A DNA stretch of 24,867 nucleotides. Origin: a virus. This document shows, piece after piece, positions 13,132-16,825 of the stretch. The position numbers and the translations under genes were made by a program. The DNA is taken from the IMG/VR virus record IMGVR_UViG_3300008339_000446, positions 1 through 24,867 of that record, one strand, 5' to 3'. How positions within the stretch are numbered: position 1 is the first letter of the stretch; each line of letters opens with the position of its first letter. Below the pieces are notes generated by a model. It was not told where the DNA came from. It ran no database searches and saw only the letters and a program-made list of their open reading frames with translations.

Positions 13132-13899
13132 CTATATGTTATTACGAATCCGGTAAAACTTAAGCAGACACGAGAAACAATCCCATCCTTTTTGGAGGTC
13201 TTCTTCCGATACACCCACGACCTTGACCTCGTTGGTGGTGCCGTTGACAAAACAAATGGCCGCATTCGCCTTGGGGACACCTAAACCCTGTCGATACGCG
13301 GCTAATTGCATGATATGCTCAAAGTACACCTCGGCCTTGTCGAGAGGGGTATCCTTTGTCTTGAAATCAACGACCGCACCGTCCCACTTCTGATAAAAAT
13401 CGGCGCGGCTCATCAAATCGCACTTGCCACCAAACCCATCCGGATGTGCAAAAGACTTCTCTGAGAGCCACAAACGGCTCCCAAAGTGGGTGTTTATGGC
13501 CTCCTCCACAATCTTGACGTATGGCGGCAGTTCCGGAATGTACACACCCTCATAAAACGACTGGATGATTGCGTGTATGGTCTCACCACGCTCGGCGGCC
13601 TTGCGTCCGGTCTCTTTGGAGTCCTGCATGACCCTTGCGAGCCACTCCTGCTCCGGTTCACCGTCAAGCCTTGGTAAGGTCAGCGCGGCGAGGAGGACTT
13701 GTTGCTGTTTCCATGTATCAAGGCCTGCTTTTGATAGCAATCCGATAATTGTTGTAACACTTGGCAAAAGTCCAAGTTTCCGCGCGTCGCGTAGCGTTGT
13801 TGCACGCTCGTTCCCATTGGCCCCAACCGTTGTATAGGCTGGACTGCCGTCTTTTGAATACCAGTGTCCACTTTCTGCCACCTTTTCTTTAACTATCAT
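13132..13899 (-). CDS. PD-(D/E)XK exonuclease (RecB/Cas4-like)
   Basis: A 255-aa nuclease. Core motifs in order are AAERGETIHAIIQSF (101-115), GGKCDLMSRAD (157-167) with Asp161, VVDFKTK (176-182) with Asp178 and Lys180, and MQLAAYRQG (197-205), the QxxxY motif. This set is typical of phage exonucleases of the RecB/Cas4 type that process double-strand ends for recombination. It lies in the same minus-strand operon as an SSB-like protein, fitting a recombination module. Its start overlaps the preceding gene by 11 bases. No annealing protein of the Redβ or RecT type is obvious beside it. Confidence 0.88.
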   Translation of the reverse strand: MIVKEKVAESGHWYSKDGSPAYTTVGANGNERATTLRDARKLGLLPSVTTIIGLLSKAGLDTWKQQQVLLAALTLPRLDGEPEQEWLARVMQDSKETGRKAAERGETIHAIIQSFYEGVYIPELPPYVKIVEEAINTHFGSRLWLSEKSFAHPDGFGGKCDLMSRADFYQKWDGAVVDFKTKDTPLDKAEVYFEHIMQLAAYRQGLGVPKANAAICFVNGTTNEVKVVGVSEEDLQKGWDCFSCLLKFYRIRNNI

Positions 13900-14104
13900 T
13901 TTCTCTCGCTTTCATCATGGCATCAGCCCATTCATAAGCATATTTGCTTGTTGATTCTTGAACTGTAATAAGACCTTCATTGCCACCCCTTAGCATTGTT
14001 AATATTCCAACCATAGCCTGTGCGGCAAAATAATCTCGCAAGTCCATACCTTCATTAATTATGGTTTCATACCCATTCCATCCTTTGCTTGGAAATGCTT
14101 TCAT
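13889..14104 (-). CDS. Small phage protein with LRDYFAAQAM motif
   Basis: A 71-aa protein. I place the start at the ATG preceded by AAGGA; an upstream reading would run through the Cys-rich gene. Its centre has EGMDLRDYFAAQAMVGIL, a motif I have seen in many small phage and prophage proteins, usually unannotated. The C-terminus is helical and charged (YAYEWADAMMKARENDS). It overlaps the exonuclease start by 11 bases, suggesting coupled translation. No function is known to me. Confidence 0.75.
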   Translation of the reverse strand: MKAFPSKGWNGYETIINEGMDLRDYFAAQAMVGILTMLRGGNEGLITVQESTSKYAYEWADAMMKARENDS

Positions 14105-14112
14105 ATTAGTCC

Positions 14113-14262
14113 TTAGAAACAGTTTGTGTTGCAATTGCCGCCATAACAGCAAGTGGTGCAAGTCACATATTTACCGTTGATAAAGTAGCTGTGTGTGGTG
14201 CAGTTTGCATAAGCCACCGTTGCAACAACCGACAATAAAACTCCTGCGATTAATTTTTTCAT
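14113..14262 (-). CDS. Secreted Cys-rich mini-protein, 49 aa
   Basis: The gene has a perfect AAGGAG ribosome site. Residues 1-19 are a clear signal peptide: MKK, then hydrophobic LIAGVLLSVVATV and a cleavage site after AYA. The mature part is about 30 residues with six Cys (21, 35, 38, 39, 44, 48) in the pattern C-x13-C-x2-C-C-x4-C-x3-C. Such density in an exported peptide suggests disulfides or metal binding in the periplasm. It sits between the SSB-like gene and a small conserved gene in the early minus-strand operon. Function unknown; I recall similar unannotated peptides in related phages only vaguely. Confidence 0.8.
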   Translation of the reverse strand: MKKLIAGVLLSVVATVAYANCTTHSYFINGKYVTCTTCCYGGNCNTNCF

Positions 14263-14273
14263 GTTAATTCTCC

Positions 14274-14900
14274 TTAAAATGGGATGTCTGAATCTGCTGG
14301 GCCAAAATTATCATCATCTGCAATCTTGGGTTCTGCGTCACGCTTTTGTTTGCCGCGCCACTCGGATGATTCTGCAATCTTTTCTTTGTAATACTTTGGC
14401 AAGGTATCGTACTTGGCTTGGTCAAACTCCTGCAACCAAAAGTGCGTAACTGAGTTAATACCCTGTGGCAGGCTATTACGCAGGGCTGTTGGCACCGCGC
14501 TAATACCGGACACATTCGCGTACTTGCCGTCCTCCGAATGCACGACCGAGAGCATACAGAACTTGCCCAATAGGTTACGCACATCAAAGTTTTTTCTGTC
14601 CTCGGTAGTCATCTTTTTACCTGACCATGATTCAAGGTCTTTACGCAGGGTCGACTGGTCGCCAAGGCTTACGGTGTAACGCTTACTAACGATTAATGGC
14701 TTGCCATCATCCGTTAGTAATTTTTCGCCATCATCGGACTCACCATGCAATTCCCAAGTAAATACCATCTTGTGCATGATTTTGGTCTCACCTTTCCAAT
14801 CTACGGACTGGTGGCCAAGGTCAATACAGGAGTAAAGCCTTGCAAGGTGGTTGCCTGCGGGCGCGATTTTAAAGTCTCTGCTTGTATCTGAAATAATCAT
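14274..14900 (-). CDS. Single-stranded DNA-binding protein-like
   Basis: A 208-aa protein from the ATG preceded by GAGGAAAG; a TTG four codons upstream is less likely. The start RDFKIAPAGNHLARLYSCID is typical of phage SSB-like proteins, an OB-fold being expected from residue 10 to about 150. The C-terminal region is disordered and acidic (AEPKIADDDNFGPADSDIPF) and ends in DSDIPF, the tip used by SSBs to recruit partner proteins. It stands two genes before the exonuclease in the same operon. The call rests on this tail and context; the OB-fold was not modelled. Confidence 0.78.
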   Translation of the reverse strand: MIISDTSRDFKIAPAGNHLARLYSCIDLGHQSVDWKGETKIMHKMVFTWELHGESDDGEKLLTDDGKPLIVSKRYTVSLGDQSTLRKDLESWSGKKMTTEDRKNFDVRNLLGKFCMLSVVHSEDGKYANVSGISAVPTALRNSLPQGINSVTHFWLQEFDQAKYDTLPKYYKEKIAESSEWRGKQKRDAEPKIADDDNFGPADSDIPF

Positions 14901-14908
14901 GGCTTTCC

Positions 14909-15292
14909 TCAAAATGGTTCAAATTCTGTTTGTTTGCTGTACCGGTGAACAATAATGCTGTTGTTTTCGCGGTCAATGGTGGTGGAATAACTGCCTTTGC
15001 CCCAATGGGTTGACATATAGGCACACAGCGAACTGCGTAGCGTTTCCATGTCAAAGTCTTTAATTGGCACCTCGCCCACCGTATCGTCGGTCATATTCTT
15101 AATAAACGGCAAGTAGTGGTTACGCAGGGTTCCCATCGGATAATGCAGTGGCCCACGCTTTTTGCGCTTGTTATACAAGACCTCAAGCGCGCCATGCTTG
15201 TTGCCGTCGCTGTCCACGATGGCATACAGCAAATTGCAGGATTTGAGCATACTGATGGCTCGTTGCAGGGTTATCTTTTCTACGTTATTCAT
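14909..15292 (-). CDS. Unknown early protein
   Basis: A 127-aa protein with a strong ribosome site (GGAGGTG) and an ATGA overlap with the upstream gene. Visible features are an N-terminal helix (VEKITLQRAISMLKSCNLLY), an alternating middle (LHYPMGTLRNHYLPFIKNM) and KGSYSTTIDRENNSIIVHRY near the end. It has no membrane segment or catalytic motif I can name. It is encoded directly upstream of the SSB-like gene, its stop nearly touching that start, so it is likely co-expressed in DNA metabolism. Function unassigned. Confidence 0.75.
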   Translation of the reverse strand: MNNVEKITLQRAISMLKSCNLLYAIVDSDGNKHGALEVLYNKRKKRGPLHYPMGTLRNHYLPFIKNMTDDTVGEVPIKDFDMETLRSSLCAYMSTHWGKGSYSTTIDRENNSIIVHRYSKQTEFEPF

Positions 15293-15613: not shown

Positions 15614-15620
15614 ACCCTAA
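15607..15620. promoter_or_regulatory. Operator copy 3, on the start codon
   Basis: The core TTAAG-ATAC-CCTAA has one mismatch to the consensus. It covers the -10 box and the first base of the start codon of the Cro-like gene, the right place for autorepression. Confidence 0.55.
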
Positions 15621-15850
15621 TGAATCCAACAGCCATTATTAATATCTTGGGCGGCGCCACCAAGGTCGCTAAACTCTGCGGAGTTTCAGTGCCGGCGGTC
15701 TCTATGTGGCAAAAAAGCGATATTCCGCGCGATAAATTAATATTCTTGGCCGCAACACTGGAGCGCGAAACAAACGGTTTGATTACCCGCAAGACCTTGT
15801 TTCCAACGACTTATGAGGTAATTTGGCCGGAGTTGCACAACAAGCAGTAA
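15620..15850 (+). CDS. Cro/YdaS-like helix-turn-helix regulator
   Basis: A 76-aa protein. Residues about 12-34 form a helix-turn-helix (ATKVAKLCGVSVPAVSMWQK) followed by SDIPRDKLIFLAATLE, the layout of small Cro and YdaS-type regulators. The rest (TNGLITRKTLFPTTYEVIW) is short, leaving only a dimerisation extension. It is the only obvious transcription factor in the window. It is encoded divergently from the left early operon and immediately before the candidate ncRNA. A palindromic operator overlaps its own -10 box and start codon. YdaS proteins are sometimes listed as antitoxins, but no toxin partner adjoins it. Confidence 0.82.
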   Translation: MNPTAIINILGGATKVAKLCGVSVPAVSMWQKSDIPRDKLIFLAATLERETNGLITRKTLFPTTYEVIWPELHNKQ

Positions 15851-16534: not shown

Positions 16535-16825
16535 GTGAAACATATTGAATTCTTTTGCATTACATTTTTTATAACCATGTGCGTTGGTATTCAAACCACC
16601 AAAGCGCAAACCTACGTTATTACCAACCCCCAAGGTTTTCAGACCGGCACCGTTCAAATACAGGGCAACCAAGCGCAAGTCGTAAACAACGCTGGTGTTA
16701 CGGTGCAAAACCTGACCATTTACCCTAATCAAATCGTGACCCCGCAAGGCTACGCAATCGGCACACCAGCCTACACCGTACCGCCAAACCCACCATCACC
16801 ACCCAGCCCAAGGGTGTTGCAATGA
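16535..16825 (+). CDS. Predicted secreted protein
   Basis: A 96-aa protein with a GTG start preceded by AAGG. Residues 1-24 are a signal peptide (MKHIEFFCITFFITMCVGIQ, then TTKA) with cleavage expected before QTYV. The mature part is Gln/Asn/Val-rich with strand repeats (TGTVQIQGNQAQVVNNAGVT, then VQNLTIYPNQIV) and ends in a Pro-rich tail (PPNPPSPPSP). It resembles small periplasmic proteins of beta-solenoid-like composition seen in betaproteobacteria and their phages. Export suggests action on the cell envelope, for example superinfection exclusion; this is inference. Confidence 0.72.
   Translation: MKHIEFFCITFFITMCVGIQTTKAQTYVITNPQGFQTGTVQIQGNQAQVVNNAGVTVQNLTIYPNQIVTPQGYAIGTPAYTVPPNPPSPPSPRVLQ

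Follow-up and report, generated by a model that had tools for sequence, protein, structure and literature searches.

Phage-encoded small periplasmic proteins that act on proteins of the outer membrane have a precedent in two described systems. T5 Llp is presented as a periplasmic, early-expressed protein with an intramolecular disulfide (PMC9586334). Rtp45 of phage Rtp is described as an LptD-binding exclusion lipoprotein of about 6 kDa, with one disulfide and a beta-hairpin, which forms a beta-sheet with its outer-membrane target (PMC12685063). How does a locus compare for which a preliminary description, made from the letters of the DNA, proposed a secreted six-cysteine mini-protein within a phage early operon? 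The window, by which is meant the whole stretch of 24,867 nt that was analysed (IMG/VR record IMGVR_UViG_3300008339_000446), has the mini-gene in the following setting.

13132 to 13899, minus strand: exonuclease gene (phrog_298; PDDEXK_1)
13889 to 14104, minus strand: downstream ORF of 71 aa (phrog_2201, unknown function)
14113 to 14262, minus strand: gene for the 49-aa mini-protein, ATG 14262-14260, TAA 14115-14113 (from the ORF, homologues and pN/pS)
14270 to 14275, minus strand: ribosome-binding site AAGGAG, which shares bases with the TAA that ends the upstream gene
14274 to 14912, minus strand: upstream gene, 212 aa, called SSB-like for the acidic tail ...DSDIPF (phrog_862)
15620 to 15850, plus strand: divergent Cro-like regulator (P22_Cro)

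This gene order we take to be comparable to that of a lambdoid leftward early operon. The 49-aa gene with a ribosome site proposed at 14113-14262 is indeed there, on the minus strand, with 7 nt between AAGGAG (14275-14270) and the ATG; the plus-strand frame with these coordinates is not open. The gene had been said to be sandwiched between SSB-like and exonuclease genes, which is right for the adjoining upstream neighbour and not for the other side, where the 71-aa ORF at 13889-14104 separates it from the exonuclease gene. The 3′ end of that ORF overlaps the exonuclease start, and in close relatives the ORF is missing along with the mini-gene. The label SSB-like likewise stands for the acidic ...DSDIPF tail and not for family membership, as the upstream protein matches no Pfam family and its PHROG matches are all of unknown function. 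No promoter-like or terminator-like site closely flanks the mini-gene in a scan that gave no more sites than shuffles did. Elsewhere in the window, at 16535-16825 on the plus strand, the rightward cluster encodes another protein whose N-terminus is signal-like (...KAQTYVITNPQGFQTGTVQIQGNQ...); it has no match in Pfam, NCBIfam or PADLOC, and by motif scan similar ORFs are in 11 of 348 viral loci. A relative of the window capsid protein was in one of 399 sampled Burkholderiales genomes, at 58% identity, which is too thin for host assignment.

The mini-protein consists of MKKLIAGVLLSVVATVAYA, the putative signal peptide, followed by NCTTHSYFINGKYVTCTTCCYGGNCNTNCF, the mature part.

14206 to 14262, minus strand: signal peptide, residues 1-19, with AYA cleavage site (by inspection; A19 in 163 of 163 aligned residues)
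14116 to 14205, minus strand: mature 30-residue peptide with six Cys including CTTCC (pairs C21-C38, C35-C48 and C39-C44 predicted from strand register)

Can so short a frame be due to chance? The mini-gene is a real gene and not a chance ORF, because it has more than 500 relatives encoded in viral contigs and because, judged by its substitutions, it is under purifying selection: comparison of the mature part with that of 120 relatives gave a pS of 0.81, at which synonymous sites are saturated, and a pN of 0.18. An IMG/VR search with the window protein gave at least 531 relatives among the 599 pattern stretches listed, an alignment query there at least 523 among the 599 matches listed, and an HMM run over six-frame ORFs of 416 fetched viral loci had matches in 328, amounting to 164 distinct proteins; this share is no frequency, as most loci were chosen because they match. 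The neighbourhood survey gave one mini-gene per locus with the exception of L194, which from 10209 has a second, naturally truncated copy ~0.9 kb from the intact one. tblastn against 50,697 phage records and 72,556 plasmids gave zero relatives, for which masking is no explanation since the window query still matched 285 of 348 fetched viral loci in a control run at a database size of 2.3 Gb with the default filter on, though divergent members could escape. Family peptide patterns run over ~85,000 bacterial and archaeal genomes gave 49 stretches, none confirmed as a member. This is a stronger negative than that from a scan of the same genomes for the Cys spacing, with at least 119 stretches, the translations read being mostly low-complexity Cys-rich and none member-like. 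At E <= 0.01 the HMM selected 10 of 399 genomes of a Burkholderiales sample, eight of which were inspected and held no member, and at E <= 1e-4 it selected 0 of 398 and 0 of 395 in samples of two further phyla, run without a positive control. Profile searches with the mini-protein gave nothing significant (best E 0.04 in Pfam, 0.18 in PHROGs and 0.043 in NCBIfam, with no match in PADLOC), and a literature search, by words and not by sequence, gave no description of the family. UniProt does hold a member, A0A6J5M8Q5, 49 aa, entered under the bare name ‘Lipoprotein [uncultured Caudovirales phage]’; it resembles the window protein with 72% identity over 29 aligned columns and a TM of 0.86 (normalised to the query model). 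The family is thus large, occurs in uncultivated phages and is without a family name: a frequent and strictly conserved small phage gene that is in no annotated phage record searched and in no confirmed bacterial genome.

The conserved Cys spacing on which the preliminary description had staked its case is kept throughout the 164-protein set. Among the 159 complete proteins the number of Cys after the signal peptide is six in 151 and eight in 8, with no other number, and the six family Cys are invariant in all 159. The five odd counts are from incomplete sequences, of which L169, L226 and L244 either begin at the edge of a contig or locus or are without a signal peptide, L388 is cut at the locus end, and L194 contributes its truncated second copy. 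Cys-based pattern searches favour intact Cys; a sample anchored on SSB genes is free of that bias, and each of its six distinct members has all six. Elsewhere in the peptide Thr46 is present in 162 of 162 and Thr37 in 159 of 162, and the peptide ends in Phe or Tyr in 156 of the 156 sequences aligned at that position (the other 8 have a gap there), with two exceptions, Asn and Ile, in the 115-sequence set. His24 is present in 159 of 164 and with C21 (C21xxH24), and together with C35xxC38, would give something like the ligand set of a zinc ribbon, as expected of a periplasmic metal-binding peptide (CxxH...CxxC). However, the other five have Ser, Asn or Thr in its place with all Cys kept, the ligands C21, H24, C35 and C38 would leave three Cys over, and the extra pair of Cys in the eight-Cys members implies oxidation. 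As His24 varies and no Cys is lost in complete sequences, metal binding is unsupported, and we give it very little chance indeed.

The signal peptide and the ~30-residue mature part with six Cys and a CxxCC run, here CTTCC, were both correctly described: the former was called by inspection from Lys2/3, a hydrophobic core and the AYA site, and its A19 is family-wide. Residue 18, at position -3 to C21, is Trp or Tyr in 155 of 164. The lipobox consensus is [LVI][ASTVI][GAS]C, and by inspection the window protein, with Tyr at -3 and Asn at -1, is without one at C21. Might the N-terminal helix instead remain uncleaved in the membrane as a small toxin, as with some host-takeover mini-proteins? Its hydrophobicity and the small early-type gene are compatible with this. 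A helix that disrupts membranes would, however, not be expected to keep its cleavage position constant or to be followed by a C-terminal sheet with six conserved Cys, and the mature peptide is almost uncharged, with one Lys and no Asp or Glu, so that we regard such a toxin as highly improbable. A cationic antimicrobial or defensin-like peptide was also considered and set aside, the net charge not being clearly positive. Export and oxidation of the peptide are well supported by these sequence features.

For the mature part, AlphaFold2 with 83 mature sequences predicts a three-stranded sheet (pLDDT 89.8, pTM 0.40), a prediction that may be guided by the Cys themselves.

14179 to 14202, minus strand: strand 1, residues 21-28, predicted by AlphaFold2
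14143 to 14172, minus strand: strand 2, residues 31-40, predicted by AlphaFold2
14119 to 14136, minus strand: strand 3, residues 43-48, predicted by AlphaFold2

In the register, which was read from two-residue turns and not from measured distances, C21 would be opposite C38, C35 opposite C48 and C39 opposite C44. Complete pairing of six randomly placed Cys has p ~0.0008 with that register given, and 0.146 with any register. The optional Cys27 and Cys32 would also face each other; they always co-occur (8 of 115 distinct sequences), apparently for the most part within one clade, so that one or two gains may account for the pair. An eight-Cys member gave the same three strands, and family insertions are at or beside the two predicted turns. 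Foldseek against the PDB (best E 0.58) and VIA-align (Z <=3.3) gave nothing convincing with a 30-residue query, which is too short to decide. Since in the predicted sheet both the six Cys and the additional two lie opposite one another on different strands, three disulfides are favoured; the modelled placement and the co-gained pair support three cross-strand disulfides, not metal binding, and of the earlier ‘disulfide-bonded or metal-binding’ it is the first half that survives, with His24 replaced in 5 of 164. The same register bears on the idea that a Cys-rich peptide with an export signal and a conserved CxxC, here CTTC, serves as a decoy, burdening a periplasmic chaperone or machinery of the DsbA/DsbB type. 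With C35 predicted to pair with C48, and C38 with C21, CTTC would be no active-site pair, and the invariant Thr46, conserved Thr37 and aromatic end suggest a binding surface and not a mere thiol load; the decoy seems to us improbable. The rows of Thr on the modelled sheet (TCT motif) also invite comparison with antifreeze proteins, a matter of resemblance only, and that reading was set aside.

What kind of gene is it in the life of these phages? It is an accessory cassette, moron-like in its clean presence or absence among similar phages, a status that follows as close relatives, and a phage with an identical SSB protein, lack it cleanly. Nine phages encode an SSB-like protein with 83-93% identity to that of the window; in seven of them the SSB-like gene is directly followed by the exonuclease gene, and the remaining two have there a different ORF in one and ~110 nt of filler in the other. 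L480 and L481 have identical SSB proteins, with the mini-gene in the first and absent from the second; their sequences come together again at the stop codon (...TTTTGA in one, ...TATTGA in the other), after which both continue with the same TTTTCGGGGGG. In the SSB-anchored sample 49 of 68 loci were examined (the 19 left out were mostly partial matches), two of them were too short, and the mini-gene is in 10 of the 47 evaluable ones. Another of the 47 (L517) has, from about 990 and directly after its SSB gene, a different exported-type peptide with four Cys; it shares with the mini-protein the post-SSB slot and a signal peptide plus Cys-rich tail of ~20-25 residues, and differs in Cys pattern, being unrelated in sequence by eye. 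This suggests that the slot recruits more than one kind of exported Cys-rich peptide. The clean behaviour after SSB genes makes the mini-gene a marker for an accessory-gene slot, and one such locus also has an Acb2/Tad1-type counter-defence protein: in L506, from 2269 onward, a hairpin protein of that kind (Pfam PF24729) is between SSB gene and mini-gene. L381 and L157 encode one too, thousands of bases from the mini-gene. A Cys-rich lipoprotein-like gene (GCEDRFRYPCQDPKNW...CKPPICTATGTCP and variants) recurs in L429, L432, L436, L446, L225, L176 and L044; the one copy searched had no Pfam match.

Across the family, 201 distinct contexts gave an upstream ORF in 196 and a downstream ORF in 181; they include near-identical phages and so are not independent, and the window's own neighbours were read from its ORFs. 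Upstream, the top cluster is SSB (44; phrog_7364), followed by Cro-like (26; P22_Cro), a 55-aa protein without match and a short DDIPF-tailed protein (16 each, the latter phrog_18187, unknown function), HNH (15; phrog_131), a 124-aa protein without Pfam match (10), and canonical SSB (Pfam SSB) and the upstream protein of window type (6 each). Downstream, the top cluster is DUF1376/primosomal (38). In 61 of 190 contexts the gene just before the mini-gene encodes an acidic tail of SSB-like type; in the same loci such a tail is present in 148 of the 5,549 ORFs with at least 80 aa, by a slightly stricter pattern and with SSB genes counted in. Among the annotated neighbour clusters, of which the largest were considered, there are no phage tail genes, the recurrent ones being SSB, Cro-like, HNH and DUF1376/replication. 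These early-type clusters around family members bear out the proposed early-operon setting, and from such neighbours we infer early expression. Accessory status and early-type setting also suit the main rival account, counter-defence, where an exported peptide that is shuffled with counter-defence genes would shield the infection from a host defence in the periplasm or linked to the inner membrane. The hairpin protein between SSB gene and mini-gene in L506 speaks for it, against which Acb2 is adjacent in only one of three Acb2-bearing loci and PADLOC gave no match for the peptide; furthermore most known defences are cytoplasmic. It is unlikely, if worth keeping in mind.

The function that we propose would begin with early expression of the pre-peptide from the accessory cassette of an uncultivated tailed phage, its export by Sec and cleavage by signal peptidase I after AxA. 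In the oxidising compartment the 30-residue product would fold into a single three-stranded antiparallel sheet with three cross-strand disulfides, as predicted with support from covariation, and would bind a conserved component of the host envelope and not a phage-specific receptor. A conserved target is most likely because the sequence is near-constant in phages with unrelated early modules. The benefit may be an infected-cell envelope that is altered, or closed to further phages, i.e., a superinfection exclusion not tied to a single receptor. That the mini-protein is an envelope-acting accessory peptide of some kind we consider reasonably probable. The full statement, an exported disulfide peptide on a conserved envelope component with exclusion of re-infection as the single likeliest benefit, is put forward tentatively, and two points count against exclusion: known exclusion proteins are lipoproteins encoded beside receptor-binding genes, and the mini-protein is neither; and an arms-race protein is seldom so strictly conserved. 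A more specific version, in which the sheet, exported early, joins a conserved protein of outer-membrane assembly or transport (Bam or Lpt type) as one more beta-strand, is rather doubtful; were it true, phage entry points would not be displayed or opened, whatever the receptor of the next phage. Should the general proposal be correct, a 30-residue three-disulfide sheet on a conserved envelope target would be a new form of phage management of the infected cell, and the peptide a ready scaffold for the study of envelope proteins.

The comparison with which we began can now be drawn more closely. T5 Llp and Cor are small envelope proteins encoded by phage, as the mini-protein is proposed to be. 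However, they are lipidated and receptor-specific, with the gene beside a receptor-binding or gpJ gene, whereas the mini-protein is without a lipobox, is encoded with SSB, Cro and replication genes and is near-constant in sequence. Rtp45, compared here by description and not by sequence, differs in being a lipoprotein with one disulfide. Near-constancy of sequence and a site away from tail genes argue against the mini-protein being a receptor-specific exclusion lipoprotein of the kind that Llp and Rtp45 represent.
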